From contig NC_045151.1 in the NCBI RefSeq assembly GCF_008831285.2, positions 8,445,682-8,509,681 on the forward strand: a DNA stretch of 64,000 nucleotides, written 5' to 3'. The translations under genes and the position numbers were made by a program. The notes beneath the pieces were generated by a model that saw nothing but the letters and a program-made list of their open reading frames with translations, did not search any database and was not told where the DNA came from. Shown piece by piece: positions 3,826-61,519 of the stretch. This DNA is from Nymphaea colorata. Its lineage: Eukaryota > Streptophyta > Magnoliopsida > Nymphaeales > Nymphaeaceae. The stretch's first letter is position 1; each line of letters opens with the position of its first letter.

Positions 3826-6800
3826 TGATACGAGCCTTCCTAGAACTCGTACTTCCCACATTGGCACCTCCACAGAAGGCACTCGTATTGGTGGGGAGGC
3901 TAACTTTTTTTGTTTTAAGTTTTGCGGAAAACAGGTGGAGGCGGCTTCTATAGACGAAGGCGGACATTTTCATTGTGAGGTTAAGTCCTCAACGAAGGCA
4001 AAGAACGAGGTGGAGTCAAGCCGGGAGCGCGTGGAAATACTTAGTAAGGCTAAGGGAGCCTTGCGCGTAGAAGACCTAGGTGGGTTCGACCTAGGAGACC
4101 TAGACCCGCTCGGTCTAGGTGAGGAAGGCCTAGGCGCATCTAGCCTAGATGAAGAAGACCCGGACCCACTTAGTCTGGAAGAGGATGACTTAGGCACGTC
4201 TGGCCTAAAAGATGGTGGGCTCGGCTTGGAGAGGAGCATGTGTGATCCAGGCGTGGATCAAGGGCAGTGGACTCGGACCCACTTGGAGAATCAAGTTGAC
4301 GAAGCTCGGGTGGACCCGGGCGAGGTGGGGCCTTTGGCCCAATTCAGATCTGGACTTTTTACTTGATTTAATTTGCTTATGTACCGTTTTCTTTATTAGA
4401 CTCGACTTACTTTTCGTCTCATCTCGAGACACAACTTGGAACCGGTTCGGGCACTTGTATTTAAGCCCAAAATCGAGACACTTATTCATTATCGTTTAAT
4501 CAAATTGAAGTTTTCTCTCTCCGCGTGAGGAGTCCCTTGGACCTTAGGTCGTGGCTTCCATGGAAGCACTACATTGCAATGCTCACCAAGCCGTGAGATT
4601 AGTGGAGATTCAAGCTCCGTTAATGGCCACCGGCAGCCATTGACAACTTGGATTTGCATCGTTCCGAACCAAGAGATCCTTGGATAGGCAGCCGTGCCTT
4701 CTCCTTGATCATGAACGAGTTGAGAGGTGGCTGCACTAGAGGAAGTTGAAGGAGGCGCAGTCCGTGGTTCTGGCTCGTCTTCTTCAACATCGACATCCGG
4801 CGAGTTTCTCATTGTGAGCTAAGTATTCCGATCTTCCTAGTGCTTGGTGGATGGGATCTCGGTTCTCCCTTAACCACAACATGAACGCAGGCCCAAGCCT
4901 TGCATTTGGGGGATAAACTCCTCGTCTAACTAGGTCTGGACCAGCGGCATCGCGTGGAGAAGAAGACCTACCTTGGAGACGACTTGAGGATGATCGGGAG
5001 CATCCGGCTGGAGTTCTTCCAGCAGCCTAAATCCTGGTAATATTCTGTTGAATCTGAGATAGGTGAGGCGTCCCTAGTCTCTGTACGAATTCTGGACCAA
5101 AAGGAGAAGGCTAGGGCGAGGAAGGAGAAAGTCTGCGGAAGGAAAGAGCGCCATCGCGGAGGGAAAGAAGGAGAAGTGCGGAAGAGGCGACTCTCAGATT
5201 TCTGAAGGGCGTGTCAGAAACCACTTCTGCTAAAACAGCTGTATCTGGAGATTTACTGGGAGTTTTGAGGCAATCTATAGCTTGTTGGAAATCTCTCATC
5301 CTTAGGTACAACATACTAAAATTTCAGTGTGATCGGACCAGGGAGCGCTGGTCAAATCCGCCGCTGAAGTTTGCTGTTTCCGCCACCGCCGCTCAGGCGC
5401 AGTCCGCCGCAGAACTGCCACTTGCAGAGGCTGTTTCCGGCAATTCCGGTGGAGTTTTCAGGCGAGCCATATACCGTTGGATTCGTAATTAAAATTTCTA
5501 CAACATATCCAAAAATCAAGGTATTTGGACTTCATTTGACCATGAATCATCGACTGTAAGTTCTGGACGTTGAAGGACTGCTTGCTGGTTTTCATGGAGT
5601 AGGTCCGAATTCTGGATAATTTTCCGGCCAGATCTGGAAGCTTCCAGCCAGATCCGACCATTGGCTAATTAGTTCCAAGTCTGCCCTTGTTATATCTTGA
5701 TTTTACTTGAATTAATTCACATTTAGCATGGACAATTTGGTCACGAGAGGCGAGCTCAACCCTAGCGCATAAGTACATCAAAAAGGCAACATTTGGGTGC
5801 CGTCCAGCCCTTCCTTACCCTCTTGCGACAATTTTGGCAAGAGATCTGCAGCTGATTGACGAGGAGGACAGGTGGCAGCTCGGGGAGGAAGGCGCCATCC
5901 ATCTAGCCCACCAAATCAGTGACGGAAAAAGGGAAGGCGATCTCCTTCTACATCCGTCCCTATGACTTTGGAAAGGAGATTCCCGTGCCTTAGGTACATT
6001 GAATCTGGACCCTTCTCAAATAAGGCAGGTGCTAGGTGGCGCTACAAGGTGAGGACACGTGGCAAGAGGCAGCTCGCGTCATCCCCATAAGATCCTCCTT
6101 CCCGATTTGATCTCCAACAATCAAGGAAGGAGATCGGCCAGCCGATTAGGTGCATTGCACCTGGTCATTATCCAAATAAGACAAGATCTTGGCGCCATCC
6201 TTGGAGATTCTCAACGCATGATTGGAGGAGATTCTTCCACGATCCTAGGAGGGAGCCTCACATCAATCTTGGGGGAGGCCTCTTAGCCCTAGCTCATGTG
6301 AGGGAAAGGACGACCACTCTTTGAGAACTCGAGGAGCCGTGGAGAGCAAGGAGTGAGACACCGTGCCGGAGTCCGACCAGCATTCATCACCGGAGCTCTC
6401 CACTTCACCGGAGAAGAAGAAAGTCACGCGTGTATTGGCGCCTCCAACACTTGTTTCCCCCTATCTATGACACTTCCTAGGGGTTATTCGATTATCCGGT
6501 GAAGTGCATCCACGAACCCTCTTTCATTTCTTTTATCATTTGGATCGTGATTACTTGTGTTCGTGTGGTTCATTTGGGAGTCTTGCCCGTGAGTCCGTGG
6601 GAGATAGTAGGGGTCGGAAACGAAGGAGTAGGAGCGTAACTTGAGGATTGCCTCAACGTTTGCCGGCGCACCGGCGATTGCTTCCCCTCTAATTATAAAA
6701 GACCGGGGTTAAATTGGTCTTACGGGTGAAGGCTTTCCTCATCTTGAAGTTGATTTCTCTTTCACTTCTATTCTTGATACTTGCTGGTTTTGTTTCTCAA

Positions 6801-7611
6801 ATCCTCATTCCCGCAAAGAAACGTGTGGCTCAACCTCTTCCCGTGGGAGATTGGAACTCGAGAGAGAAAAGGAACCGCATCCATCGGGCGAAATCGACGA
6901 TAGCATCCCCCAATCGACGTTCCGTTCACTCTTGGGGTTGATTGAGAATCCGGTGACGATACTCCCTCTCTCTCTATCGTTTCTTCCTACATAGAACTTG
7001 ATTTCCTTCTCGTTATTGTGATTCAATCTGAGGAATATTGCTGCCCGGAGTTGAAGGGGAGCTGAATACCGAAGGGCAATCTTGCGCTGTTGGCCTTTAC
7101 CTTCGGTGAGCAAGAGGAGTCCCCAAGCGAGGCCTTGGGAGGTAACATCGGATCATCCTATAGATCCGGGGAAAGGGTGTATTTGCTTCCCAAACCGCCT
7201 ACGGCATTGACAACCGGCTGGAATCCCTCCAAGGCACCTTGTCAAGGACACGATTTCTGGGTTGTGGACCACCTAGGGATAAGGGTATGGTTTGTTCCGA
7301 CTAGGGATTGAATGACAGGATGGTTTGCATGGTTTGGTGGATGTTGAGTGAGATGAGTGCTTGATGTATTGCTACGCTTTGTATTAAGCCTCACACCTAT
7401 TCTAGACCATTGTAGTAGGCTCAAACCGGGATTGGGGAAGCCCTTCTTGTACTATCTTGACCTATTATTAAGCCGGGGTGACTGTCCGGCGGGAACCATT
7501 CATTGTATTGAAATTTTAAACCCTAAATCGGCAACCTCCTCCTAGATCTTGGAGAGGGTCTCGACGGCACCTTGGTGACTTTATTATCCGCATTCGGGTC
7601 AGACCCTACCA
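3826..7611 (+). mobile_element. Solo LTR A of a large-LTR retrotransposon family
   Basis: The block starts TGATACGAGCC, ends GACCCTACCA, and is flanked by a perfect 5-bp duplication GATTC (3821-3825, 7612-7616). TG...CA ends plus a 5-bp target duplication define an LTR, and no second copy, primer site or gag-pol lies inside or next to it, so it is a solo LTR. Its first 25 bases share TACGAGCC..CCTAG.ACTCG with block B at 35722. Other landmarks shared with B and C are TCGTCTCATCTCGAGAC...GAACCGGTTCGG (4414-4450), GCTGAATACCGA.GGGCA (7061-7078) and GAATGACAGGATGG (7310-7323); the last two are 249 bp apart here and 252 bp in B. Length is 3,786 bp, long for an LTR; long LTRs occur in some Ty3/Gypsy lineages, but without an internal region the clade is undetermined. 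Open frames inside (for example 3935-4366) lack homology and are not genes. Confidence 0.88.
4414..4465 (+). promoter_or_regulatory. Putative LTR core promoter (solo LTR A)
   Basis: The conserved block TCGTCTCATCTCGAGAC...GAACCGGTTCGG (4414-4450) is followed 8 bp later by a TATA-like TATTTAAG (4458-4465). The same order is seen in block B. I infer it is the U3 promoter; activity is not shown. Confidence 0.5.
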
Positions 7612-7616
7612 GATTC

Positions 7617-10192
7617 AGTGCTTGGAATCTTTGGAAATTTCTCAAACTAATGATTGCACAATAAAACCCCCAAAACTCTGCCTCAAATTCCAGTGAAACC
7701 AAGCGATTTGGAAGAAAATGCATGGCAGGAATAAGGAAGAACCTGATGTTTAATTTCTTCATCCAATCTGAGTTCGATCGGTGTTATTTTATGCCTCCCC
7801 GGAGTTTTTTGGAGTCGCCATCTCCCTCCTCACGGCCGTGGCTAGGTTCGTCCATGGCTGTTCGACGTTCATCCCAGAAGAAATGCCCCCAAACTTCTTC
7901 GGATTGTGATATCCTCCTTTCTTTTGCCCTTTCTCCTCTTTCTCTGTTAGGGTTTCCTTTGGCTGTGGGTTGCAACGACCATTCTCGGCAGCCAGCGACT
8001 GGCGAGTGTCAGCGAATCAAATGTCTATAAACCACTTACATCAATGTTTTGGATGATAAATGATTTGTAAAATGTAAGACAACTAAGGATATTTGAATGG
8101 TAACCCATTTTACTAAAGGTCCATTATACTTAGCTAGTTAAAACTGCTTACATCAATAAATTGAGTATTTGTTGTAATGACCGTAAATTTTTAAGCTTTT
8201 TTTTTTTAAACACACACATGCAGAAATAAACTTTAAGATTTAAACCTCTTAAAACATTCATAATCATTACAACACACCATCTATAACCACACCATAGTTA
8301 AGTAAAAGAATCCCAGTTAACAGGTTCAACCCTTAATATGAAAAGATAACAAAGAAATAAAATTTCTTACATCTAACTCCAGAATTCCGAGACCGACTTG
8401 GGGATCATCAGACTGTCATGACTGTGCAACATCTACATCACCATTCCCCTCTATCCACGGTCACTTGGAAAAGACATTGGGGTGAGAATTTGAAAAGTTC
8501 TCAGTAGGGTGACTACCCTAGATTCATTGGCTTATAATTAACATATTTGTAATCCAACTTGCACCAGGTCAAACATAGCTGCAATCAACTATTGTACATG
8601 ATAAGAGGATATCTAGTTATAATAAGAAATTGAACATATTAATATTCATCAACATATGCATGCTAGATGATAAGGAGCAATAACAATAACTTCTGCATAC
8701 AAAGAAGTCGATAGATTCATATGCTGCCGTACACACCCTTATTTATAATGTAGTGGCATGCTTGCAAACATAATTAAATTTCTCTTGTCAATTCACTACC
8801 GGCACTATGCATATGGTGTTTCAGCCCGCACTGGTATTTTCACACAACAGCTTTATTATAGTGCCTAAGAGAACAACCAATAACAACCACAATACAGGCT
8901 AGTGCTAGACTCATAGATTGAACGTTGTCTTCTTCCATTAAACCGCTCCTTCAAAAGGACATGTTAGAGGGTTGTTTTTCTATTCTCATGGCAAGGGAAC
9001 AGGTCACCCCATAATGGGCATGCTCAACACACACAGACCATACACAGTCATGCCAGATTATGCATTAATCCATGTGACCATCGTTCATTACTTCGAATAT
9101 CAATTTGCTCATATAATTTCTTTAACCACATGCATCAACACGTCTCAGCATAATGAATGACTGATTACAAGTGGATGAAATGATGAGAACATTTTTCAAG
9201 AACCTATTTTAAGTCTCACATGCATAAATTCATATATTTAGCATTTTGGATCTTGAAACTAGATAACAAAAACACATAATTAAATAACACATCTCAAAAT
9301 AGACAAGATTTAGATCCACCATGTATAACTATATGCGCATATATATTTTTATCCAACATGTTCCAAATGTAAAATTGACATGAACCATGCATATGCATAT
9401 GATCAAAACAACATAGACATAGTCATATCCAAGTTGAAAGAATATAATTTTCAGCACAAGTCCTTATGTATTTATTTATTTATTTATTTATTTTATTTAG
9501 TAATTTGACGATGAGAAGATCACCATGAGTTTTTTACTTAAAGAGTTTTCATTTAAATATGAAGAGAAACTAAATTGTGACTTTCATAAGAAAATATAGC
9601 TAAAGCCCTGTTTTAGCATTTTATCAAACATTAGTGTGAGAAAAAGTGACATTTTTAGCAATAAAAGACTGTTTTGGAATTTAGTAGGAAACTCCTAAAA
9701 CTTTGCAAAACAAAATCGAAAATCTCTCTTTCAGAGATTATTTCATAAGGAAAGGAGGTGGGATAAAAGCTTTTTCATTTTTAACAGTTTTTTCGGAAAA
9801 CTCAAAAAGAAGTGGACTTGAAAATCCCGTTGTAAAACATATGAGAGCTTCCCTTTTAACACGCCTGACCATTTCACTAAGTGACCCAAACAGACTTAAA
9901 AGAAAACCCAGAGGCCAGGGTTGACATGACTCAAGAGATGGACAGCAAGGACGGCTTCCTTTCTTAAATCAGTAAAAGAAGAAAAGGATGAAACATGGAA
10001 CTTCACTATGGCCTGATTGTCATCACCACTGAACCATATACAGGGAGCAGCCACTGCACTATAGCATCAATACACCTATATGGCATAGGTCCATTAACAT
10101 GAAATGGATATTCATTTCACCAAAAGAGAACATGTAGGAAGCATGAGAATGTACATAGATCATTCTAGGCAATGGCCATCTTATGCATGTAT

Positions 10193-10273
<81 letters not shown>

Positions 10274-11786: not shown

Positions 11787-11791
11787 TCATG

Positions 11792-12152
11792 TGCTAAAGC
11801 CAGTTGCCCTTACTAATGAAAAGGGACAATAATCGACAGCACTAATGAATTATGAAGTTGCAAAAGTACTAGTCATCAATTGCGCACAATTAATGATTCC
11901 CTTTTCTAAATTCCGTTGCAAATATTTGTGGAGACGTCTCTTTCAAGCAGTTGCTAAAATATCCTCCACCGCATCCTTATAACAGATCTGTAACTAATTT
12001 CTCCCTTTCATCCTTTGTAACGATGTTGTATATATTCTTTTTGAAGGTTCAATTTATGGTGTGTAGTAGACACAATTCTTTCCGCGTTCCCTTCATATTT
12101 GAGCTCGGACATCTGTTTCTGTTCTATTGCCTTTTGTTGTCCCTTCTTCACA
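11792..12152 (+). repeat. Copia-1 5' LTR
   Basis: Starts TGCTAAAGCC and ends TTCTTCACA immediately before the primer-binding site. A TATA-like TGTATATATTC lies near 12026-12036. It pairs with 16960-17321. Confidence 0.95.
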
Positions 12153-12154
12153 TT

Positions 12155-12166
12155 TGGTATCAGAGC
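12155..12166 (+). other. Copia-1 primer-binding site (tRNA-Met)
   Basis: TGGTATCAGAGC lies two bases after the 5' LTR end. It is the canonical plant Copia site complementary to the 3' end of initiator tRNA-Met, where minus-strand DNA synthesis begins. Confidence 0.95.
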
Positions 12167-12173
12167 GATCGAA

Positions 12174-13248
12174 ATTTCTTCTCAAAATCAGCCTCAAGCA
12201 TCTACGCAAGGCAAGCCTTCTGCTGCTGCTGGTCTCAACTCAGCGTTTGATGCAACTGCCGCTGATCTAGCAAATCCATATTTCCTCCATCACTCGGACA
12301 ACCTTGGCTCCATTCTGGTGTCACAAGCGCTTAACGGTGACAACTACTCAACCTGGAGCAGAGCAATGACGATGGCATTGTCTGCAAAGAACAAAGTTGC
12401 CTTCATTGACGGTACATTGGTTCAACATGATACCTCATCCCCTGAATTTTTTGCTTGGAGGAGATGCAATGATATGATCCTCTCCTGGATCCTAAACTCA
12501 ATCTCGAAGGAACATGTGCAAAGCATCATTTATGCCACCACTGCTGCTGAAGTCTGGAATGATCTAAAGGAACGATTCACCCAGAGCTCTGCACGAAGGA
12601 AGTATCAGATAAAATGCGCCATTTGGTCATCTGTCCCAAATCACACTTTCTGTTGCAGCCTACTATACCCAACTGAAATCTTATTGGGATGAGCTCTCCT
12701 CATACGATGTTCTGCCTACCTGTTCATGTGGAGCCCTAAAGGAAATTTTGGAGAAACAACATGAAGACCAGGTCATCCAATTCCTGATGGGCCTGAACAA
12801 CTCCTTCAATACTGTGAGAGGTCAGATATTGCTGTTGGATTCCTTGCCCTCTGTCACCAAAGTCTACTCGCTGATTCTTCAGGAAGAAAAGCAAAGGGAG
12901 GCAAGAATGCAACCTCCCTCAAACGATCACATCAGCCTCTCTGCTGGTTATGGCAATCGCAACTTCAGGAATCGAAGTGTTAAGAAGCCAACATACTTTT
13001 GCAACCACTGCAATGTTACAGGTCATTCCAGAGACCGCTGCTTCAAACTGAATGGGTGCCCCCCAAACTTCAGAGAAGGCAGGATCAAAGGAGATAAAGT
13101 GCTAAAGCCAAACTGTGGTGACCAAAGCAAAACTGCCTTCATCGCTGCAACTCCCAATACCCAATCAAATGACTCTGGTAAGGAACCTGCTATTGCTTTC
13201 ACTGCTGAAGAGTTTTTACAGCTGAAGCAAATACTCAAGGACCGATGA
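12174..13248 (+). pseudogene. Copia-1 gag (decayed)
   Basis: Gag forms the virus-like particle and binds the element RNA. The UBN2/Copia-gag region is clear (LNGDNYSTWSRAMTMAL..., WNDLKERFTQ). Further on, from 12748, come VIQFLMGLNNSFNTVRGQILL and a zinc knuckle CNHCNVTGHSRDRC (C-x2-C-x4-H-x4-C) at about 13000-13042. The expected start codon position just after the primer site (12174) reads ATT before TCTTCTCAA, so I infer a lost ATG. A frameshift around 12610-12690 separates the UBN2 part from the rest. The frame then closes with TGA at 13246-13248, directly before the protease motif in the same frame. Confidence 0.9.
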
Positions 13249-14899
13249 ACACCACTTACCTCGATTGCAAGTCTGTCATCTTTATCTCCCTGCACATGGA
13301 TTGTCGACAGTGGTGCCAGTCACCACTTGTCATCTTCCTTGTTCAACATGTCTGAAGTTACATGCCTTTCAATTCCTTTTCCTATTAAACTTCCTGATAA
13401 TCGAATCGTCCAAGTGTCGCACATTGGACAAGTAGTTTTGTTATCTGATCTAGTTCTCAAAAATGTCTACTACATACCTGATTTTCACTTCAACCTTATC
13501 TCTATCTGTAAGTTGTTGAACCAAACTGATTACTGTCTTTGTTTCACTTCTACTTGTTGCTACTTGCAGAACCCGACCTTCAAGACAATGACTGGTCTGG
13601 CTGAACTGCGAGGTGGCCTTTACATCTACAAGTCCTCCTCGACACAACCAACAGCCTCAATCCTGAACTGCAACCATGACCCGACAGATCTGTGGCATAT
13701 TAGATTAGGACATCCTTCACCAACCAAAAATGCCTTGTTTTCTGAATATGATATAAACATCAAACAATCAAATAGTTTTTGTGATGTCTGCAAGTTGCCT
13801 CAATAGTCTAGACTTTCATTTGAATCCAATAAAGTGCGTTCTGTTGCTCCTCTTGAACTTCTTCACTGCGACATTTGGGGACCTTATTTGAAAGCTTCAT
13901 TCTCAGGTGCCCATTACTTCTTATCCATCGTCGACGACTACACTAGGTCTGTTTGGATCTACCTAATGAAGTTCAAAAGCGAAACTTACCTGCACTTGAA
14001 AAATTTCATTGCTCTAGCTGAAAGACAATACCATCACAGTGTCATCATGGTGAGAACCGACAATGGTGCAGAGTTCTTCTCTAACGAAATGAAAAATATT
14101 CTGTTGGAGCATGGAATTGACCATCAACACATCAGCACCTACACTCCTCAGCAAAACGGGGTTGTAGAGAGAAAGCATCAGCACATACTAAATGTGGCGA
14201 GAGACTTGAAAATTCAATCTGGATTGCCAATAACGTTTTGGGATGAATGCGTCCTCACTACCACTTACCTGATAAATAGGATGCCTTCAGCGAGTCTACA
14301 AAATAGAACTCCATACGAAATGATGTTTGGCAAAAAACCGTCTCTTGCTCACCTATGAGTTTTCGATTGTCTTTGCTTTGCTACCAACCTAAAATCCAAA
14401 CACAAATTTGACCAAAGAGCTGGAAAATGTGTATTTCTGGGGTATCCTTTTGGACAAAAAGCCTACAAACTCTACAGCCTTGAGAACCAAAGAATATTCA
14501 CAAGTCGTGAATCTTCAATGAAAAGTCGCTTCCCTTCAAACTGCTGAGTCATGAATCATCTCTGTTTGTGTTGCCCTTCACGTTTGATGAATATAACGTT
14601 TCAGAAAATAGTCCTTCATCAATGCCCCTTGACAGTCCTATTCATGAAGAAACAGACACCTTCCCAACTCAATGAGCCAACTATTAGTGAAAGAATTGAT
14701 GCCACAAATCTGCTAAACCCTGTAATACAGCAAACAACTGTTACTGAACTTCACCGACCGACTGAACCGATGCCATAGGTTCAGCCTCCTCACTTGAGAA
14801 GATCAACTCGCAAAAGCAAACCCTCAGTACTATTGAAGGACTTTTACTGTAACGTGGCCACTCAAGGATCACCAGACCCATCGTTGTTGAGAAGGAAAA

Positions 14900-15751
14900 A
14901 GGTCACCAGGTATCCTCTCTCTCAAGCTCTCTCTTTCAACTCCTTTTCCCAACCTCATAAAGCCTTCTTGCTGAATATCTCAAAATACACTGAGCCTACT
15001 TCATTTAGTGAAGCTGAGCAGGATCCAAACTGGAGGAAGGCAATGCAGTTAGAAATCGATGTGTTGGAAGAAAGCAAAACCTGGATGCTTGATGCTCCTC
15101 TGCCCAATGTGAAGCCTATACCCTGCAGATGGATTTACCACATCAAGTATAAAGCTAGTGGTGAAGTTGAGAGGTTTAAGGCCAGACTAGTGGCTAAGGG
15201 ATTTGCTCAAACTAAGGGACTAGATTATCAAGAAACCTATGCACTAGTCGCAAAGCTCGTCATGGTCCGATGTATGATTGCGGTCGCGGCCAAAAAGAAC
15301 TGGCTCATCCATCAAATGGATGTTTAGGTCACCAGGTATCCCCTCTCTCAAGCTCTCTCTTTCAACTCCTTTTCCCAACCTCATAAAGCCTTCTTGCTGA
15401 ATATCTCAAAATACACTGAGCCTACTTCATTTAGTGAAGCTGAGCAGGATCCAAACTGGAGGAAGGCAATGCAGTTAGAAATCGATGTGTTGGAAGAAAG
15501 CAAAACCTGGATGCTTGATGCTCCTCTGCCCAATGTGAAGCCTATACCCTGCAGATGGATTTACCACATCAAGTATAAAGCTAGTGGTGAAGTTGAGAGG
15601 TTTAAGGCCAGACTAGTGGCTAAGGGATTTGCTCAAACTAAGGGACTAGATTATCAAGAAACCTATGCACTAGTCGCAAAGCTCGTCATGGTCCGATGTC
15701 TGATTGCGGTCGCGGCCAAAAAGAACTGGCTCATCCATCAAATGGATGTTT
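14900..15751 (+). repeat. 426-bp tandem duplication within Copia-1 RT
   Basis: Positions 14900-15325 and 15326-15751 are the same sequence in direct tandem, with two differences seen (near 14916 and 15274). The unit is 142 codons, so the frame is kept, but the junction makes GTT-TAG and ends the frame at 15327. It covers the region upstream of the RT core and the first RT blocks up to LIHQMDV. Confidence 0.97.
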
Positions 15752-16949
15752 ACAATGCATTCTTAAATGGAAGCCTGGAGGAAGAGATTTATATGGCACT
15801 CCCACCTGGCTATGAAGAACGTAATAACATGATGGTCTGCAAATTAAATAAGTCCATCTATGGACTGAAGCAGTCACCCCGTTGTTGCTTTGTGAAACTT
15901 TCTGATGCAATTGTGTCCTATGGTTTCAACCAGTCCAGAGCTGATTATTCCCTGTTTACACTCACATCTGGAAATGTGTTCATAGCTGTACTGGTGTATG
16001 TGGATGACTTGATCATCTGTGGCAACAACCTGGAGGGTATCCAAAACTTCAAAGATTACTTGAGCAATTGCTTCAAGATGAAGGATCTAGGAGATTTGAA
16101 GTATTTTTTAGGTCTTGAACTCACTCGTACAAAAAAGGGTATTCTCCTCACTCAATGCAAGTATACATGTGACTTGTTAGATGAAGCCGGGCTGCTAGGC
16201 GCAAAGCCCATGGAAACCCCAATGAAATATTGACTCAACCTGTCAGCAACTGATGGACAGTCATTGAAGAATGCAACCATTATCGCCGATTGGTTGGTAA
16301 GCTGATTTACCTCACAATAAATCGTCCAGACATTATGTTTTATGTCCATGTCCTCAGTAGACATATGCAGCAACCAACTATAGCACATCTGGACTCAGCC
16401 ATGAAGGTGTTACGATATCTGTAGAAAAATCCTGGGCAAGGCTTACTGTTTTCTCAAAACTGTAACTATGAATTGAAAGCGTATTGTGATGCCGACTGAG
16501 CAGCCTGCAGGGATACTAGACGCTCAGTTTCAGGTTACTGCGTCTTCTTCGGTGGTAGTTTGATTCCATGGAAATAAAAAAAACATCCTACTGTATCACG
16601 ATCATCCACCGAAGCAGAGTATCATGCCATGGCTAATGTTTGCTGTGAAATATTGTGGCTGAAGTGCATACTAGCAGACCTCACAGTGCAACACTTAGAC
16701 TCAGTCCTGGTCTCCAGTGGCAGCAAGTCAGCCTTGCAGATGGCTGCCAATCCAGTGAAGCATGAACGAACCAAGCATGTGGAACTAGATTGCCATATGG
16801 TGAGAGATCTAGTGAGGAACAAAACGATTGAGACCAGATTTGTGTCATCCCAGTATCAAGTTGCTGACATGTTCACCAAATCCATTAGAATGGATCAGTT
16901 TCTCTCCTTGAAAGGCAAACTTGGCCTCTGTGATCCATATGCCCAGTTT

Positions 16950-16959
16950 GAGGATGGGG
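16950..16959 (+). other. Copia-1 polypurine tract
   Basis: GAGGATGGGG abuts the 3' LTR start (TGTTAATGCC), the expected position of the plus-strand primer. The T interrupts the purine run. Confidence 0.85.
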
Positions 16960-17321
16960 TGTTAATGCCAGTTGCCCTTACTAATGAAAAGGAACAATAA
17001 TCGACAGCACTAATGAATTATGAAGTTGCAGAAGTACTAGTCATCAATTGCGCACAATGGATGATTCCCTTTTCTAAATTCCGTTGCAAATATCTGTGGA
17101 GACGTCTCTTTCAAACAGTTGCTGAAATATCCTCCACCGCATCCTTGTAACAGATCTGTAACTAATTTCTCCCTTTCATCCTCTGTAATGATGCTGTATA
17201 TATTCTTTTTGGAGGTTCAATTTATGGTATGTAGACACAATTCTTTCCACGTTCCCTTCATATTTGAGCTCTGTCATATTTCTGTTTCTGTTTTGTTGCC
17301 TTTTGTTGTCCCTTCTTCTCA
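16960..17321 (+). repeat. Copia-1 3' LTR
   Basis: Starts TGTTAATGCC, ends CTTCTTCTCA, then the target duplication TCATG. About 94% identical to 11792-12152 by hand count. Confidence 0.95.
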
Positions 17322-17326
17322 TCATG

Positions 17327-20998: not shown

Positions 20999-21006
20999 GG
21001 GCCATT

Positions 21007-21349: not shown

Positions 21350-21357
21350 GGGCCATT

Positions 21358-22557: not shown

Positions 22558-22562
22558 GATCC

Positions 22563-22737
22563 TGTTACGACCAGAGAGGGAGAAGCTATAAAGATTCCTC
22601 ATTAATGTAACTCTAATTTCCTTTTAAAGAGATTAGGGCTCACGGTACAAAATTTACAAAAACAGTCCAACTACAATAAGAAAATATTCAAAGATCTCCT
22701 CTCTAACTTTTTAGTATTTCAAAAACACTCTTTAACA
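22563..22737 (-). repeat. Copia-2 3' LTR
   Basis: Reads TGTTACGACC...CTCTTTAACA on the + strand and is the mate of 25430-25603. The purine-tract complement CTCCCCCTCAAGCTGG starts at 22738. Confidence 0.93.
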
Positions 22738-22753
22738 CTCCCCCTCAAGCTGG

Positions 22754-25429: not shown

Positions 25430-25603
25430 TGTTACGACCAAAGAGGGAGAAGCTAAAAAGATTCCTCATTAACGTAACCCTAATCTCCTTTAAAGAGACT
25501 AGGGCTGGCAGTACAAACTTTACAAAAATAGTCTAACTACTATAAGAAAATATTTAAAGATCTCCTCTCTAATTTTTTAATATTTCCAAAACACTCTTTA
25601 ACA
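25430..25603 (-). repeat. Copia-2 5' LTR
   Basis: Reads TGTTACGACC...CTCTTTAACA on the + strand, followed by the target duplication GATCC. About 90% identical to 22563-22737. Confidence 0.93.
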
Positions 25604-25608
25604 GATCC

Positions 25609-31435: not shown

Positions 31436-33436
31436 ATGTCATCTAACATTGGGGATGAAGAATATCGTCCGATGGCAGATGTAGAGGAAGATGAATCTTT
31501 TACATGTACTGAAAAAGATGTTCAATCCAAGAGAAAAAGAACTTCGATAGTATAGAATGACTTCAAATTAGTAGAATTTAATGGAAAAGAGTGGGCGAAA
31601 TGCAAACATTGTGGTGAACGATTTACTGCACAAAGTAGCAGTGGTACGAGCCACTTAAAATGACATAGAGATACATGTGTCAGAAAACAAATACTTGATG
31701 GAAAACAAAAAATGTTGTCATTTGGAGTTGGTGAATCTGGAGCCTCAAATTTAAGTCTACACAAACTTGATATGGACAGTATAAGAAAAGGTTTGGCTAA
31801 GTTGGCAATAATGTATGCACTTCCTTTCAGTATTGCATAATATGAATATCTTAACGATCTTCTAAAGCTTTTAAATCCAAGGTTTGTGCCAATTTTTAGG
31901 AGAACACTTACAAAAGAGGTACAGTCAATGTTCTTGGCTGAAAAAAAGAGATATCAAGAACTTGTAAATAACCAAGTGCAACGGATATCATTGACATTTG
32001 ATATGTGGTCCTCACAATAGACGTTAGGGTTCTTATGCTTGACAGCCTCTTATATTGATACAGATTGGCAATTGCACTCTCACATACTTAATTATATACA
32101 TGTGCCTCCACCACATAATGCAATTTGCATATGTGAATCTGTGTTGGAGTGCATTACTACTAAGTGGGTAATTCATTTGAAGTTGTTTTCTGTCACTGCT
32201 GATAATTATTCAACAAATGATAGTGGAATAAGTTTGTTGACAAGGACCATAGAAAGGAAAAATAATATTTCATTTCCATTGAGAAGGGAGTACTTTCATA
32301 TTCGTTGTGGTGCACATATCATAAATCTGATAGTTAAAGATGGTATGAATGATATGGATGATACAATTTCAAAAGTTCGTGACAGTGTCAAATATATAAG
32401 GAGATCACCAAAACGACTACATGCTTTCAAAGAATGTGTAAAGACAATGGGTTTGGATGAGAAAAAAGGTTTAAACTTTGATGTTCATACTCGATGGAAT
32501 TCTACATTTATAATGTTGAGAGATGCATTATTATTCAAAGATGTCTTTCAATATTTGGCATCGTATGATCCTAGTTATACATGTTTGCCTTCTGAGGATG
32601 AGTCGTTTCATGCATCAGATTTATGTCAGTTCTTAAAGGTCTTCTATAAGCATTTGTATAGGCATCGTGGAGCATCAAATGAACATATAAGGGCATTGGC
32701 ATGCAAAATGCAAGAAAAATTTGACAAATACTTTAAGGGCTACAATATTCTCTTTGCAATTGCAGTTATTTTGGATCCTAGGTTCAAGTTGTCATACTTG
32801 AAGTATTTGCTTAGCAATTTAGATAAACCTGATGCAATAGTGAAATGTGGAATTATAGAGAGCACTCTTCATAAATTGTATGCTGAGTACAGAAATATGT
32901 ATGAGGATAGTGACATGTGTAAATAGGAAGGGCCAATGCATCCACTAGTACCGTGATTGCAATGGAAGAGTATAAAAGTGTGTCTAGATATGGGTTTAAA
33001 GCATATGTCAACTCTATATCTCCTGTAGTGGTTCACACAGATCTAGACAAATATTTGCTAGATCCAATGGAAGAAATTTCACCTACTGTAGAGTTCAACA
33101 TATTATCTTGGTGGAAGGCAAATGAAAGCAAATATAAAATTCTAGCAATGATGGCTCGAGATGTGTTAGCTATTCCTGTATCTACAGTTGCTTCAGAATC
33201 TGCATTCAGTACATCGGGAAGAATTATTAATGATTATCGATGTTCAACTACTCCCGAAAATGTAGAGTCATTAATCTGCACACAAAGCTGGATTCGTGAT
33301 GCAAGCAACTTGTGTAAAAGGTAAGATGTTCATGCTTCATAGTTTATACATATTAACTTAATAGTGTGCTTAAATTAATAAGTGTCTTTGTTACAGTTCT
33401 CATGATGCAGAGCACCATTATGACGAGGAATGTTAA
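31436..33436 (+). pseudogene. hAT transposase (BED finger, RNase-H fold, hATC), broken
   Basis: From ATG 31436 one frame runs to 32926, interrupted by TAG 31553, TGA 31661, TAA 31838, TAG 32018 and TAG 32924. It encodes a Lys/Arg stretch KRKRTS, then a BED zinc finger CKHCGERF...HLK*HRDTC (stop in the finger), then SLTFDMWSSQ...LCLTASYIDTDWQLH and CGAHIINLIVKDG plus DVHTRWNSTFIML of the RNase-H-like domain, and FAIAVILDPRFKLSYLKY of the DUF4413-like segment. After a frameshift between 32926 and 32953 comes the hATC dimerisation domain (DVLAIPVSTVASESAFSTSGR). A typical intron 33321-33396 (AG|GTAAGA...TTACAG) would add SSHDAEHHYDEEC and the stop at 33434-33436. Reconstructed length, about 640 residues, fits plant hAT transposases, so the loss is by point changes and a small indel, not truncation. 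Confidence 0.93.
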
Positions 33437-35329: not shown

Positions 35330-35337
35330 CTCAAAGG

Positions 35338-41985: not shown

Positions 41986-47290
<5,305 letters not shown>

Positions 47291-47342
47291 TTAGATAAAC
47301 AATTGCAGCTCTAAAAATTTCAATGTTGCAAGGAAGCTGGAC

Positions 47343-49300
47343 ATGTATATAAGTACAAGTGGAGATGTTAGTTTGAAGAATGCCAATGAAATGATAATTT
47401 CAAATGTTAATAATATGATAGAAGATGAAAAGATTAATGTGGATAAAGCAAATGAGGCATTAAATGTTGCTATTGAACATTGTCTTGTGAGAATGAAATT
47501 AGTTCCAAATATTGACAATAAGTTAGTCTCATATGTTGGAATGGAGCACGACAGTATCAATAAGGCATATGAATTTTATAATATATATGTAAGAGTAGGT
47601 AGTTTTGATACATGGATACCTGATTCAAAAAAGAAGCGATAAGTTATATATTACAAATAGTTTGCATGCAAGCAGAATGGTTTCAAGAAACAAAAAGGAC
47701 ATTGAGAAAAAAGAACATGCAAATAGTAGATGTGGTTGCAACACATGGATGTCTATCAAATTTTTGTCAAATAGGAACAAATGATGTGCACATATATATT
47801 TTATTATATTTAATATGCATACAATCACTACTTGCATTTTCTGTCCAAAATGAATTTTCATAAGGAAATAAAAGATATGCACACCCCTGAAAAGATGAAG
47901 CAGATTGCATGGCTGGATCTGAAATATGCCCATCAAAGTCATGGATGTCATTGTTGGTGAGGCTGGTGGAATGGAATATGTTTCATTTAGTAAACAACCA
48001 TTGCATAAGTATCTTCATAAACTTATGAATATTTACTGTGGAAAAAATAGTTAGACAATGATAAACTATTTTCAAGAAACAAAAGTTGAAAGCCCGTAAT
48101 TTAATTTCAACATTCAAATTGATGACATTGGATAAATAAAAAATTGTTTTTGGGTAGATGCAATTAACCATGAAGATTATTATTACATTGGAGATGTGGT
48201 GACATTTGATACGCTTTACATGGAAAACAAATGTTATGTCATTTTCCGGTGTAAATCATTGCGGGCATAGCATAATTTTTTTGTTGAACACTATTAATTG
48301 ATGAAAAAAGAAAAAAATTAAGTGACTTTTTGAGTGGTAAAGCTCCAATGTCATTTTTTTACTTACCAAGATCTCACAATGAAGGCGATAGTAAAAGAAG
48401 TCATGTCAGACATTGTACATGGATGTTGTAAATTGACATATATTTATAAAAACACCAACATATATTGGAATATATACATAGAATAGTCAATTTCAACTTT
48501 TGTAGGACGTGTGGTTTTTCAAGTCATAAATAGTTCAAGAATTTGAAAATCAATGGAAAAACATTATTAATTTATATCTCAGCTGGAAACCATTAAATGA
48601 GCAACAAGCTTATAGAAAGAAATAGATAGATGAGTTGAACCATGTTCAAGAAACACTTTTATGGTAGGAATGTCTACAACCAAATGAAGTGAACACATGA
48701 ATAACTATTTTAAGAATAAGGTCAATTCATGTACACCTCTTAGTGTACTCGTTGTCAAATATGAAGAGGTAGTTAACAAACAACTATACCTAGAAAGTGA
48801 GCAGGACTTTAAGATTAACAATGAAGTTTAATCCACCAATCTCTCAAGTCCACAATTACTGCTAGAGTTGTTTTTTCGAGACATCTTTACTCCTAAAATA
48901 TTTAGAAAACACCTCACCAAAGAGTTTTTGGCTTGCATAGGTTGCTTATACATGGTCAAAGAACATGCATTTGAGGTGAGAGAATATAATATAAGCAATT
49001 CATCATATGGTAGTTCAGATGGTGTATATAAATATTATACAATTTCATTTGATTGTAGTTGTTAAAATTGTCAAGTTATCCATGCAAATTATGAGAATCA
49101 ATGGGTATTGTTTACCTTCATATGCTTACAAAATTAAAATGCAAACTGAATAAATGGTCTACCTCCTACTTATTACTTAAAAGATGGAGAAAACATGCTA
49201 CACATGTTCAAAAGTGTGGTTCAACTTCCCAAACAATGCCAAATGGTATAGTTCTCTTTATTAGTAAAGAAGAAATTTCTTCAAATGAAGGCAAATAAAT
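47343..49300 (+). pseudogene. FAR1/FHY3-like (MULE-derived) pseudogene
   Basis: FAR1/FHY3 proteins are plant transcription factors derived from Mutator-like transposases; related MULEs carry the same domains. The frame 47343-47642 ends LVSYVGMEHDSINKAYEFYNIYVRVGSF, the start of the FAR1 DNA-binding domain (usual P.VGM.F.S...AY.FYN.YA...GF). Further blocks follow in shifted frames: GSEICPSKVMDVIVGEAGGMEYV (about 47908-47980), TMINYFQ...FWVDAINHEDYYYIGDVVTFDTLY (48050-48225), the MULE-type catalytic region, SCTPLSVLVVKYEEVVNKQLYLESEQDF (48729-48815), KIF.KHLTKEFLACIGCLYMVKEH (48895-48970) and a SWIM-like CSC near 49056-49065, ending with STSYLLLKRW. There are many stops and frameshifts. No terminal inverted repeats or target duplication were recognised, so gene relic versus MULE is open. 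Confidence 0.82.
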
Positions 49301-52300
49301 TTGTTAGTGAAACATTATCAAATGATACATGTTATGGGAAAGTAGTAGATGTGTTTGAAGATTTGTCAGCAGTTTTAGAAGAATTGATGATTAAGGATAA
49401 ATAATTAGGTAAAGAGATGCATATAATGCACATTTGCCGCAATGCCGAAGACCAACATGATAATATTGCTAGATCATAAACCAGTTAGCTCCAAAGGACT
49501 GTAAAGTGATTTGTTTCAAGAATTGAGAAAAGTAGAATTAGGAGATAATGTGCAAATTGGAGATTTGGACGTGATTGCAATAGATGTAATCTACACATTA
49601 AAGCAAGGTAAAGTTGTATTATATTTGTATATTTGTAATGTGTGAACCATCAGTTTTGTTATAATTACACAATTATGCAGGAGTACTTCAACCATGGTGA
49701 TAGTGCAAAACAAAGATTGCATCATTCATGTAATGGAATGAGCCATGATAAGCTGGAACTTTGATTTTGTTTATCTAAGAATGACAAATATTGAAAGTTT
49801 ATGATATTTACTATAGTTGTTTGAAATCTGTAGGGTGCACTTATGCAAAATGTCATCAACAATTATATTTTTAACATCATATCTTGCTAAATTTTTGGTA
49901 TTCAATTGTTTGTTGTTTCGATAAAAAAGGTTTTTTTTATTATGTACACTTTATGAGTTACCATGCATTATCCACTTTATGTTCAATGGTAGTAGTTGTT
50001 TGTGAATATAATTGAAATTTTATACATGTACTATTGTTGCTACAGTATGTTGTTTTAGCCAGTTCTATATGTTGTATTTGGGATTTCCATCACTATGAAA
50101 TTTATTATGTCGACTTGTCATGTGGGTGCATGCTGTAATATTGTTTTTGAATTATAAAAAAGGGCAAAGTTTGATGCTTCCGCTACATGGGTGCAATTAG
50201 TGAGGGGTTGCATATTATTAGAGTGAAAGAAAAATAGCTTGTGAGTTCACATGATATGAGATCACATGATTGAGTAATGTAGAACTCTTTTCAATGTATG
50301 CATGTGGTGGTAGGCTATTGTAAACTCATTCATTTTGCTTGATTGATGGTAAAAAACACTTTGTGGTAGTCATGAAAGGATTATAGTGTCATGCTACCAA
50401 TTTGTTTAAGCAAGGAACTTATTTGGTTTTTTGCATTCAAAGTTTCATATTCCAATAGCTTCTAGCTACTCATGCTTAGTAGGTTGCTTTAAAATGTAAA
50501 TAGAGGCTTTAAAAACTTAGAAACATGTTTATATCTTTCTCTAGTCTATGCTTCTAATTGTGGTAATCTTGTTCAACTTTTAGAGATATTTTTATTGAAC
50601 GAATAACTTTGGGTTTGACAATGTTCAGTTTGAACTTTTGTGCTTGAATAAATAATTGAAAAAAATCAGATTGTAGCTTTCATGTCTGTTTGTACCTTAA
50701 CAAGACTTTGGAGGATGCTCTAATCAGAAATTTTCACAATTATTGAATGTCACCCTTTCTCGTAAAACGTTCAACTAATTTTATATATATATAGACACAC
50801 ACACACACACAAAGAGAGATCACAATCTCTAGATCTACTCGAAAATGAGAAATTCAAGTACAAAAAACCAACAATCTTGGACAAAGAAGAGATCACAATC
50901 TCTCTATATCTTTTCTCGAGAGAATCTCTATATCTCAATCCAGTCTATTAAGCAAGTGCATGAAGACACTTAGGCTGAAGGCACCTTTCAGTATAGGTCT
51001 TCATTCTTCAAATGTTTCTTATCATCTTGGACAAAGAAGCATATGTAGAGTTTACATAATTGATGGATGTAATTGTAAATTGCAAGGAGCTACCACAAGA
51101 AAGGGAAAGAGGAGCTACTGATGCACCTCAATACTCCCACATAAGCATGCATTGGGATGAATATATCACGTGTCAGTATTCATATATGGGCAAAATTCTT
51201 CTACTTTTACACCCATCATAAAGACTAAGGAGGATAACAACAACGTTTGGTGTAGAACCATAGAGGCACACATTTGATGGTGATGCTAAATTCTTTAATT
51301 TTGTTCATACTTCTTATGCAGTCATCGATTATCATGATATCTTGGTTCAAAATTTCATGAATATAGCCCCTGAAAAGGAGAACGTTACCACCCAAAGTGG
51401 TTTTAGTAGAGAAACCAATTATAGAACAAATGATCCAACATCAGCATCAACATCTTTTCCCTATATTTTTTCTCTTCCCCTTCATATACTCCTTCTGGTG
51501 GCAGTTTGTTTCTTCTAGGAAATTGAATGACTTCAAAACAATACACAAACAAAAACTGAGAAATAATAGAAACATTGAAGAAACAAGAACAAAAACACAA
51601 TAGAAAGAGAGAACGGTGATGCTATGTGCATCAACGTTTCACTCCAAACCAAGGAAGTCTGCAAAGCCCCTCCACCACCTAAGTAAAATGGAGCACTACC
51701 TTTTTATTGTAAAAAAACTCAAAAAACTTGTTTGAAGGACCTCCTTTGGCCAACTTTATATCTACTAAAACAATTCATTGCACTTGAGCACCAACCTGCC
51801 CTTCTCGGCAAGAATTGGTCACATCATTAGATTTAGTTTTCTATTTAAGTGGGAATATGATTTTCAAGGGACAGGTTGGTTAGATCAGATAAGAATGAGG
51901 GTGGTCCTTCTAAATTCTCTAGAAATGCTGTCTTGAGAAGTTGAAATGATAAGAATATTCGTTTCATCCTAAATTTATAGTTCCCAAACAAAGCACCATG
52001 AAGAAAAGAGCAAAAAACTAAATAGGATGTCCACTTCATGAAGCCTTTCTAGTGATCCCCATAATCATGAAACACCCCAAGCATTGCCATTATACATACA
52101 ACACCATAAAGAACCCAAATCTATAACAGAAGAAACAAGTCAAACAGACAAATCTCAACATCGATTAGTTGCAAATACAAAAAGAAGTCAAACATAAATA
52201 AAAAAAAATGAAGCTGAAGGGCTGTCATGTACATGATTTTTGTTAAAACAAGAAAGCGAAAACAAACTGAAGTGTGCATTGAACCATTGTCAGCAAACTT

Positions 52301-52364
52301 AGTAAGTTGACTCAAGAATCATCCAAGTCGGCTCGAGATCATCCTCTTATTGGGCTACCAGTCA
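49301..52364. other. AT-rich spacer, no gene recognised
   Basis: No supported coding sequence. A (TA)n(AC)n run lies at 50782-50811. Overlapping open frames on both strands at 51397-51603 lack domains. Confidence 0.45.
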
Positions 52365-52369
52365 GGACC

Positions 52370-55300
52370 TGATGCGTGCCTACTTTTGACTTTGTCAGAG
52401 ATGGCAGAGGGAGAGGCTGAGGCGAGACCAAAGGCACCTAACATGGGCCTTAGACTAGGCGAGGCAGGTCGGAAGCCGGCTGCCGAGCAAGAGAGCCTAA
52501 GGCCAAAGGAGGCCACGGCACGGCGCATGGCCAACGATGGAAACCAGCCAAAGAAAAGAGGCGTGCACAAGGTCGGCAGTGCCAAGAGACACTCGGCCAA
52601 GAAGGGCTGAGCTTTGAAGGTCAACTCCGAGTTGGAGGTGTTGGCATAGACAGCCAGGAGCATAGGGAGAATGTCTCCCAAGACTCGCAGGGACGTGAAA
52701 GTGCTGACAAAAGAATGCGAGCTTAGTGAAGTTAGCAAAGTACTTGGAGGTGCTACAGTGAGCGGTGTGGGTGGAGCATCAATGGTCAAGTACAGGCAAC
52801 ACATAGCAAACACCGAAAGGAGCTTCAATAGATTAGGGGATGTTAACACGAGGCAGAGATGTCAACATCTAGAGAAGACGAAGGGGGGCAGATCAGAACA
52901 GAAGACCAGGACCGGTTATACCAGACCAAGCCAAGTGCCGCATCCCAACCCAGTTCGACATGAGCAGCCTAAGGTAAGCCAAGGTAAGTGTCGGCCGCAA
53001 GGCTAACAAGATGAAGAGCCTGGGCGTAACCTAGGCGTGTTACCCCTCAGACTTACAAGTCTGAGAATTCAGATAGCGAGCGCAACGAGTCATCGCCGAC
53101 GCTCATTTACTTAAGTTCTAGTTTGCTTTTGCATATGTTTTAGCTTCGTCTCTGTTTGAGATGTTTTAGTATTGTTTTGCTTTTAATGTTTTGTACCGTC
53201 TCGGTAAGACTTAGAACTGAGATACTATCTAGTATATATGCTTTGTAATCGTATGAAACTTTATGCTTTTGGAGAAATGAAATATTGAAGTTCGTTTGAG
53301 AGTCTCTCTCCTCTCCCCGAGTGTGAATCATTTTCTCCACTCGTCCTCAACCAGCGGGCTGCTGGATCTCTTCTCCACTCGTCCTCAACCAGCGTGGCAG
53401 GAATTTCTTTATTACAACCAGCGGTCTCCAAGGCCGATTGGATAAAAGATTGAAGAAGAACGCGAAGTTGCTACCAGCGGCATCTTCCTCGACTTCAACC
53501 TTAGCAATACCCCGACCTGCAAGTCAGCTTCCTCAAGGTGCAATTCTCTTTAAACACAAAGGAGAATTAGAGGCCGGCTGAAGTCTCGAGAAGGCTACAA
53601 GAGAACAGATTTACCCGTGGTTCTGGTGAATCTCGCATCGGCTGTAGCAAGTGACGCCCGGCTGATCAACGTGAAAGATCGGCTACCAGAGTGCCAACAG
53701 ATCACAAACGAATCCCTGGTTGTGGCGCCAAGCAACAGAGATGAATTCCAGCAAGCCGACATCAAATTCGTGCAAGAAACAGCCCACGGCTTGACCGAGA
53801 AATCAAGAAGAGCGGGCGGAACTTTCTATTGAAATCTGAAGGAAACTACGAAATTCAGCTGGTTATAACATTAACATCGCCCAGTAGAGAGCTTCTTCCT
53901 GGCCAAATTTGAGTTCAATCGAGCGAGAGACGGCTGAGTTACAGCCCACAGCCAGAATCCGTAAATTGAGCACCGGCCGCATCCACCGCTGCACTCTTTC
54001 CGGCGATTATTCCAGCCACTCGACCAGCGTCATACATATTTTGCCCATGGTCAATTAATTAATTGATTGATTATTAGCTTAGTGGGGAAGGGCAGTTCGG
54101 TACATTCAAAGAGGATAACGCTCAGAACTTCAAAAGCCCAAACCGTGTGCGCCTTCTCTTCCTCACCTCTTTGGTTCCCCTCATCAAAACGAAAATTACA
54201 AGTGTCAATCTCATTTAACCTCCACCCTTGCCACGTGCCATCCATCCAATGCCCCAAGGCCTACTCGCTCCAAACGTTTGCACAATAGCTTGTGCCAAGT
54301 GTCCCTCACCTCCACTCGTTGGGCTCCCCTCCTCTTGAAACCGTTCCTAAAACCCCATGAGCTAGAGTCATCCTCATAGCTCGCCACCTAGCATCACCTC
54401 ATCATTAATACCATTCCACTCATAATTCCCACTTCCATCTCGTGAGTCCCTTGGCTGCCCATATTAGGTAACCGACCACTCCTCCTTGGCAGCAACTACC
54501 ATTAATTAACCCACTACCTCATCCACATGACCCTTAGCCCATTCTCCAGGCTTAACGGATACCCTCTTTAAGTGCTCCACTCCTCACACACTTAACTCCA
54601 TAGACACTACCGCATCACTCGTCATTATTATTAGCCTCACTCGTCATTAACCCATTCACTCGCCTAAGCCATCTCTTGGCTTTTCCTAAGCATAACCGAC
54701 CCTCATCATTAGTGACCACCTCTCTAAAGACGTAACCCCCTTCGTTAGCTCGACCGAGTCCTAACTCACTTAGGCCTAGACCTATCATATCTCACCAGCT
54801 TAGCCTAGCCCACCTTGACCCTAATACTATCCACGCCCACTTAGTCCATCCGAGCTCACGTTACCTCATAGCCGAGCTCATCCTTTTCCCTTGAAGCCCT
54901 AGTTAGGTTACTCTCATCCGAGCTCTAGACCGAGCTCCTTACCATCATCAAGGCGTCCATCAGTCGAAGACCAGCCATCGTACGTGTACCGTTGTTTGTG
55001 CTCAATTGCTCGAGAAGGCTGTCCGTGATCAACTTCCAGGCAACGCATCATCAAGGCAATCGACTTCCTTCAAATGACCAACATTGCTGCAACTTGAAGT
55101 CGACGGCTCCTTCCAGCTCCGGAGGCATTCCAAGGCGACCTCGGCCAGGCGGGCCGAACACTTCTCCTCATCCGTAGTTGAGATATCCGAGGGCAGCACC
55201 CGCTGCCGGTATTCACCTCGGATCCCTTGCTGCTTGGCTGAATACTCTCCACCCGATAACACTCTTAACCCTCTTTAGCTGCGAGGGATTGAGTGTTAAT

Positions 55301-55681
55301 TTGTTTTTCCAAACCAGGCTTTTGCCTTTACATTCGTCGGCAGTCCCTCTGAGGCTCACGAGCCAAGGACACGACTGCAAGAGCACTTGACTACCTACGG
55401 GCGGGACATGGTTTGGCCGACTCTAGGAATGAATGACAGGATGGAATGAATGTGAATGGTTTGAATGGTTTGTTGAGTGAGACGAGAACTTTTCTGTATC
55501 GCACGCGATTGTAATAGCCTCACAACCATTGTCCTAGGAAATTTTTAGCCGGGGTTCCTGGCAAGACTTTTTATTGTAGAGACTTATTTTTGGATTTGTC
55601 CAACGGCTGACTCAAGAGATCTTGGGGAGGGATCCGCATCTGGCAGAGGTCTTGGTTGACGCCGGGTCCAGGTTCCTACCA
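52370..55681 (+). mobile_element. Solo LTR C of the same large-LTR family
   Basis: Starts TGATGCGTGCC, ends GGTTCCTACCA, flanked by a perfect 5-bp duplication GGACC (52365-52369, 55682-55686). GAATGACAGGATGG (55431-55444) is shared with A, 250 bp before the end (A 301, B 311). GCGATTGTAATAGCCTCACAA and AGCCGGGGTT in the last 200 bp match landmarks in A. A TATA-like GTATATATG lies at 53232-53240, after TGTACCGTCTCGG. Length 3,312 bp. An imperfect CTCCACTCGTCCTCAACCAG duplication occurs at 53334 and 53373. No internal region or second LTR. This is the most diverged of the three at its 5' end. Confidence 0.85.
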
Positions 55682-61517: not shown

Positions 61518-61519
61518 AA

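Follow-up and report, generated by a model that had tools for sequence, protein, structure and literature searches.

Among plant Ty3/gypsy chromoviruses, the length of the long terminal repeats (LTRs) tends to track the lineage, with short repeats in Reina and long ones in Tekay. Reina LTRs measure 293-503 bp in beet (PMC3605345, Table 1) and 328±51 bp in Setaria (PMC6527191, Table 1), and in five of seven beet Reina families, the gag-pol frame runs through the polypurine tract (PPT) into the 3' LTR (PMC3605345). The largest LTRs belong to Del/Tekay with 1.1-4.4 kb (PMC4029996), or 3005±902 bp in Setaria (PMC6527191). In this study, we analyzed a 64,000-bp stretch of the Nymphaea colorata genome (the window; C14:8445682-8509681 of 407.8 Mb), which contains three blocks, A, B, and C. 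Each block is very probably a solo LTR left by a Ty3/gypsy chromovirus, and the three stem from three related families. The part that may be novel is the lineage behind them, a large-LTR sister or branch of Reina. As solo LTRs, the blocks reflect ordinary turnover of the genome.

Three LTR blocks in one window

A sequence-only reading had delimited the blocks by TG and CCA ends and private 5-bp target-site duplications (TSDs), and all of these positions proved exact (Table 1). The duplications are perfect at three of three blocks, and the flanks hold neither a primer-binding site (PBS) nor a PPT. On the + strand of the window, the strand scanned, the 11-bp head motif TG[AT]T[AG]CG[AT]GCC has three matches, which are the three block starts. 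It also held that all blocks lie on the + strand and that the window lacks the internal domain of the family, as tblastn with four queries found no lineage coding sequence in the window (best E 0.079). Terminal repeats were not found within blocks A, B, or C; the middle of B holds short repeats, and C holds short palindromes. The blocks do not differ from the solo LTRs of other plant LTR retrotransposons, which likewise consist of a single LTR between intact 5-bp duplications.

For each block, a full-length chromovirus with two several-kb LTRs around approximately 5.2 kb of gag-pol would have been inserted by its own integrase, which would have created the 5-bp duplication. Unequal homologous recombination between the two direct LTRs would then have removed the internal domain together with one LTR, so that one LTR would remain between the original duplications. 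Such an LTR-LTR recombination event presumably lies behind each block.

Full-length copies of family A

The genome was searched with the last 300 bp of block A, the best 40 of 111 candidate places were scored, and twenty stretches were fetched. Several same-strand pairs 8.6-9.2 kb apart were among these best 40 matches, and full-length copies with the same ends and readable domains were found. The fetched copies end at the proposed TG/CCA termini and not beyond, and the LTR length of 3.3-3.8 kb derived from the window agrees with the A-family full-length copies, whose LTRs are mostly 3.3-4.1 kb long. These copies have 5-bp TSDs and an internal region of approximately 5.2 kb with a tRNA-Met-type PBS, domains from gag to integrase, and a chromodomain-like tail. 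The PBS TGGTATCAGAGC begins 2 nt past the LTR in five of six copies (the C8 copy is one base short), and the PPT (e.g., GGAGGGTGGGGT) directly abuts the LTR start TGATACGAGCC. The open frames of three copies (L016, L018, and L013) carry Retrotrans_gag, RVP_2, RVT_1, RT_RNaseH, Integrase_H2C2, rve, and SH3_Tf2-1 (Pfam) in Ty3 order, and in a profile-profile comparison, the chromodomain-like tail, putatively a diverged chromodomain, reached 94.2% against the Tekay- and Reina-type chromodomains of the same genome. Family A is an autonomous Ty3/gypsy chromovirus. Since its full-length copies share the block ends and carry PBS, PPT, and domains, the blocks are read as solo LTRs of such an element, each a single LTR between perfect duplications, as the sequence-only reading had proposed.

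Three copies illustrate the family. The copy at C1:23.98 Mb has LTRs of 3539 and 3536 bp (98.25% identical), the TSD TGCTG/TGCTG, and an internal region of 5212 bp; the copy at C2:24.80 Mb has LTRs of 3996 and 4044 bp (94.1% identical), the TSD GTCGG/GTCGG, and an internal region of 5177 bp. At C1:8.68-8.70 Mb, LTRs of 3711 and 3814 bp (94.6%) are flanked by CTCTC/CTCTC inside a CT repeat and have approximately 5 kb of extra sequence between them. With T=K/2r and r=1.3e-8 (the rate of PMC7251063, uncalibrated for this host), the LTR distances correspond to ages of approximately 0.7, 2.4, and 2.2 My, respectively. On C174 (L013-L015), LTR and internal regions form a tandem (LTR-internal-LTR-internal-LTR) whose neighboring LTRs are 98.6% identical; its last LTR and the following 15 bases recur unchanged at C8:2.91 Mb, which makes it probable that these two loci are not independent. 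A further locus, L020 (C1:9048300-9057000), has a family A 5' LTR with PBS; its partner, just 4 kb away, consists of a 3' fragment of an LTR. Most of the interior of this copy is gone, as happens in illegitimate recombination.

The sequence-only reading had also considered that the blocks might be non-autonomous elements inserted as single units. In this case, A, B, and C would be whole elements resembling large retrotransposon derivatives (LARDs) or terminal-repeat retrotransposons in miniature (TRIMs), inserted without LTRs of their own. The blocks share with LARDs and TRIMs that they have no domain-coding sequence, and the missing internal domain in the window and the single state of three of three copies fit as well. 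Unlike these elements, however, the blocks have no LTRs or terminal repeats inside, and the A unit recurs elsewhere as the paired LTRs of coding elements, around gag-pol and with PBS and PPT at the block ends. In the relative of B described below (L043), the PBS likewise follows the LTR immediately. Because a coding internal domain lies between two copies of the A unit, the non-autonomous reading is refuted for A, and for the blocks altogether, it is scarcely credible.

Solo versus complete elements

In the genome, 57 places have a PPT-LTR junction, 39 an A-type LTR head, and 453 an LTR-PBS junction, each with zero matches in the reversed-pattern control; the LTR-PBS places are individually unchecked and may include other tRNA-Met-primed elements. 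Twenty-five of the 39 A heads pair with an end (with ends from the best 40 of 111 tail matches). They comprise nine PPT-headed 3' LTRs, six PBS-tailed 5' LTRs, three LTRs with both, and seven with neither. One of these seven, at C1:9056185 (L020), is followed three bases later by a PBS and is the 5' LTR of the damaged element; the other six are solos judging by their flanking bases. This gives a final split of 6 solo LTRs, 18 LTRs adjoining a PPT or PBS, and 1 LTR of a damaged element. Besides block A, perfect TSDs were found at the solos at C9:8.34 Mb (AACTG), C7:12.36 Mb (CAGTA), and C1:13.3 Mb (CCAAC).

The three solos in the window had been taken as a sign of strong LTR-LTR recombination loss, and the count did not support this suggestion. 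PPT-headed LTRs mark elements with an internal domain, and among the 25 family A LTRs with both ends located, 6 solos stand beside 12 such LTRs (9+3, with at least one probable duplicate, C174/C8:2.91 Mb), or approximately 0.5 solo per element. This is below the value given for fifteen species, an intercept of 2.69 solos for each full-length element (PMC7251063, figure legend), and the three solos of the window are thus no sign of unusual loss in family A.

Three families of one lineage

Whole blocks were aligned globally and compared with 30 dinucleotide shuffles each, and the last 600 bp with 60 shuffles each. The whole-block z-scores were 28.0 for A-B, 9.2 for A-C, and 7.3 for B-C, and those of the last 600 bp were 17.9, 13.4, and 8.5, respectively. 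Similarity was weak in the first 600 bp (3.8, 2.3, and 0.3), with values of 5.3, 1.2, and 3.8 for the first 100 bp. Locally, A and B are similar along two long collinear segments (A 462-1320 and 2627-3786, approximately 53% of A) with 57-59% identity and a best core of 70% identity over 310 columns, whereas C matches A and B mainly near the 3' end, over 282-362 columns with 62-68% identity. A and B align collinearly over roughly half the length of A and at the ends. When the 300-bp tails were compared with the genome, the best-scoring other place reached 98% for A, 76% for B (253 bp matched), and 74% for C. The blocks are too diverged for the single family that had been suggested; they are three families of one lineage and three separate insertions. 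Block C would belong to this lineage by its ends and its 3' sequence.

The best-scoring relative of B is L043 (C2:21.17 Mb), which matches parts of the LTR at 72-77%; a PBS directly follows its LTR, and it contains gag-pol pieces of the same lineage. The nearest relatives of C, L041 and L042 (C14:8160400-8164900 and C14:8140300-8144900), are one segmental duplication (99.3% identical) of a solo LTR of approximately 3.89 kb with the TSD GGATG/GGATG.

Several points weigh against the reading developed so far and its extension to a clade. Own full-length copies of B and C were not found in the genome tail searches, as their best tail copies are only 76% and 74% identical, and no coding copy linkable to block C was found among its genome relatives. 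Within family A, the TSD of the full-length copy at C11:19.6 Mb matches at four of five bases, two of six solos have imperfect TSDs (CAATT/CCATT at C8:7.70 Mb and CTCCT/CTCGC at C1:8.25 Mb), and 14 of the 39 A heads lack a matching end and are unclassified. The A-family tail scores 15.2 bits with Pfam Chromo, under the cut-off of 25.1. Finally, the clade names used below come from features of this genome's own elements and not from named reference sequences.

Placement among the chromoviruses

We tentatively call L050-L055, L057, L058, L060, L063, L065, and L069 Galadriel-like by their motifs; L068 is unlabelled. L044 and L045 were labelled Tekay-type by the gag finger CxxCGxxGHxxxxC and, in L045, by the 5' LTR end GGGTGTGACA, which carries the Del U5 motif of PMC4029996. 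L048 and L049 were labelled Reina-type by LTRs of 303-324 bp, a total length of approximately 5.2 kb, and a frame that continues into the LTR as in PMC3605345.

In a tree of 32 reverse transcriptase (RT)-RNase H sequences, where L043 fell under the coverage limit, the large-LTR lineage is monophyletic (ultrafast bootstrap, UFBoot, 100) and joins L048/L049 (UFBoot of the split 99-100). For the constrained trees and a second tree, L011, L057, L058, and L060 (203-264 of 380 columns) were removed by hand, while L068 (271 columns) was retained. By the approximately unbiased (AU) test, grouping with the Tekay-type elements L044/L045 (p-AU 0.007) and with the Galadriel-like elements (p-AU 0.0003) was rejected; grouping with L068 was rejected by the AU test (p-AU 0.008) but not by the Shimodaira-Hasegawa test (p-SH 0.205). 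The second, shorter alignment included five further RTs and L043, which nests within the large-LTR lineage. RT-RNase H identity to L049 is 55-59% in seven of eight lineage representatives and 48% in L018. Among the best 150 of 3341 candidates in a genome search with a Reina-type RT, 10 places matched at 70-100% and 140 at 58-64%; by identity and place, the latter look like the large-LTR lineage. Of five RT matches that were fetched and placed in the tree, three fell in the large-LTR lineage and two in Reina. By these RT sequences, family A and the nearest relative of B fall on the side of Reina in the chromovirus tree of this genome.

A Tekay/Del chromovirus whose Reina-like placement is an artefact would account for the LTR size, which fits both the Del/Tekay range and the Setaria mean quoted above. 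Like Tekay/Del elements (Retrosat2, Bongo, Peabody), the lineage combines several-kb LTRs with a tRNA-Met PBS and a chromodomain-like tail. It differs from them in RT placement, in the terminal sequence of the LTR, in the gag finger, and in where the open reading frame ends relative to the PPT. The lineage LTR ends have no GGG or TTC at -8 to -10, the U5 motif of Del/Tekay (PMC4029996), the gag finger is CFNCEEKWHAGHKC and not CxxCGxxGHxxxxC, and the frame enters the LTR. The tree and the genome search with the Reina-type RT point the same way, and we consider this explanation highly unlikely. Tekay membership was rejected by the AU test and by the LTR ends.

Long LTRs and an open frame into U3

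LTR length is 3.3-4.1 kb across families A, B, C, and the relative of C, with one truncated A copy of 2.4 kb, and approximately 3.9 kb in L032, a more distant lineage member. These values fall within the 1.1-4.4 kb of Del/Tekay and are roughly ten times the published short Reina lengths. In full-length copies, the gag-pol frame crosses the PPT into the U3 part of the LTR. In 10 of the 15 LTRs of family A, among them block A, it stays open for 142-187 codons; it does so for approximately 93-97 codons in L032 and L031, and for approximately 27 in the Reina-type L049. Over 17 LTRs, the frame has at least 142 codons in 11 (one frame-shifted, two identical) and at least 79 in 14; the others have 33, 35, and 60. 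At the L031 locus, open frames are present in all three frames at 7969-9601, but the sequence is N from 8078, and the LTR runs into Ns.

Counted by hand as distinct events, four of five indels in the U3 tail preserve the frame (two adjacent gaps counted as one). A script that recounts shared events found 5 frame-keeping indels among 12 in the tail, compared with 2 among 54 and 3 among 62 in other parts of the LTR. Variable columns per codon position were 0.27/0.30/0.38 in the U3 tail (4 copies) versus 0.12/0.10/0.37 in pol, and 0.36/0.38/0.41 in the tail over 8 copies. Purifying selection on the amino acids of the U3 tail is at most weak, unlike in gag, pol, and the chromodomain. The coding case for the tail comes from the open frame and the frame-keeping indels, and the frame may be a fast-changing C-terminal tail of the integrase.

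Comparison with Reina elements

The lineage resembles Reina elements, such as the Bingo families of beet (PMC3605345), in the nearest RT-RNase H, the tRNA-Met PBS, and the 5-bp TSD. It also shares an internal region of approximately 5 kb, a gag-pol frame that crosses the PPT and enters the 3' LTR, and the gag-finger spacing, which is that of L048. In contrast, its LTRs have 3.3-4.1 kb instead of 0.3-0.5 kb, the whole element has approximately 12-13 kb instead of 5.2-5.8 kb, and U3 holds 79-187 codons in most copies instead of approximately 27 in L049. The chromodomain under the Pfam cut-off and the separate, 100% supported branch set it apart as well.

In the literature searched, a Reina-side element with kilobase LTRs did not appear in the parts covered of PMC3605345, PMC6317226 (the main plant survey), PMC4029996, and PMC6527191, nor in those of PMC3485330, PMC3350952, PMC7251063, PMC6696364, PMC6523491, and PMC8127270. 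The lineage may already sit in REXdb. In that case, it would be a known and unremarkable subgroup, either of Reina or of the unclassified chromoviruses, with long LTRs that the papers compared here do not discuss. Grouping of the RT with Reina-type elements fits this explanation, whereas the parts covered of these papers show no Reina element with kb-long LTRs and the published Reina lengths (PMC3605345, PMC6527191) are all far shorter; it comes close to an even chance.

Other features of the window and the genome

The positions of all block features are collected in Table 1. The TATA-like sites in A, B, and C may act as promoters. On the minus strand, a 164-codon frame at 52355-52849 runs antisense across the start of block C; it has no Pfam match and is probably a chance product of the GC-rich U3.

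Table 1. Features of the three blocks, each very probably a solo LTR (window positions; + numbers in brackets count from the block start).
Feature	Start	End	Strand	Remarks
Block A 5' target duplication	3821	3825	+	GATTC
Block A, solo LTR, family A	3826	7611	+	3786 bp; TG..CCA, perfect TSD; PPT-free upstream, PBS-free downstream; full-length relatives share its ends
Block A, gag-pol frame continued	3827	4363	+	179 open codons; putative integrase C-terminal tail
Block A TATA-like TATTTAA (+633)	4458	4464	+	putative promoter
Block A portion of shared 3' region	7140	7436	+	310-column match to block B
Block A 3' target duplication	7612	7616	+	GATTC
Block B 5' target duplication	35717	35721	+	CCTAC
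Block B, solo LTR, family B	35722	39123	+	3402 bp; TG..CCA, perfect TSD; relative L043
Block B, gag-pol frame continued	35723	35986	+	88 open codons
Block B TATA-like TATAAA (+708)	36429	36434	+	putative promoter
Block B portion of shared 3' region	38641	38937	+	
Block B 3' target duplication	39124	39128	+	CCTAC
Block C 5' target duplication	52365	52369	+	GGACC
Block C, solo LTR, family C	52370	55681	+	3312 bp; TG..CCA, perfect TSD; nearest relatives L041/L042
Block C, gag-pol frame continued	52371	52607	+	79 open codons
Block C TATA-like TATATA (+864)	53233	53238	+	putative promoter
Block C portion of shared 3' region	55408	55530	+	
Block C 3' target duplication	55682	55686	+	GGACC

Further elements and repeats were seen in the window. 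A Ty1/copia element at 11791-17322 has end repeats of approximately 365 bp (92% identical) and gag, integrase, and RT domains; its pol contains a 427-bp tandem duplication (99.5% identical, 14900-15752). A second, likely copia-type element at 56072-61994 has direct repeats of 477 bp (97.1%), and a gag frame of copia type lies on its minus strand at 58993-59577. The frame at 32039-32926 has a hAT-like transposase RNase-H fold (PF14372), and a 175-bp direct repeat (22563-22737 and 25430-25603, 89.7% identical, 2.9 kb apart) is possibly a small non-autonomous LTR element.

Elsewhere in the genome, a relative represented by L031 belongs to the same lineage (71-73% pol identity) and has many long-frame copies at C3:28.6-30.7 Mb and C3:0.04-0.13 Mb. 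Among the best 50 scored, 46 places belong to it, and in 42 of these the match is free of stops. C3 accounts for 20 of the 46 (16 of them within its last 2.3 Mb), small unplaced contigs for 25, and C6 for 1. This packing on C3 may mark a centromere-like, subtelomeric, or non-recombining region. As to a link with ribosomal DNA, an Rfam search of L031 alone gave no match at gathering scores.

Meaning for chromovirus evolution

We tentatively propose, as a possibility that we rate somewhat short of probable, that the lineage is an undescribed chromovirus clade, either a sister or a deep branch of Reina. It would have gained LTRs of 3.3-4.1 kb independently, and its integrase frame would have been lengthened into U3 by anything from tens of codons to almost two hundred. 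In this genome, it would also have multiplied strongly, most of all at one end of a single chromosome. If this is true, a Reina-side lineage with LTRs of approximately 4 kb would break the rule that ties LTR length to lineage and would mislead classifiers based on length. One could then also compare elements of a single genome to see whether the formation of solo LTRs is driven by LTR length.

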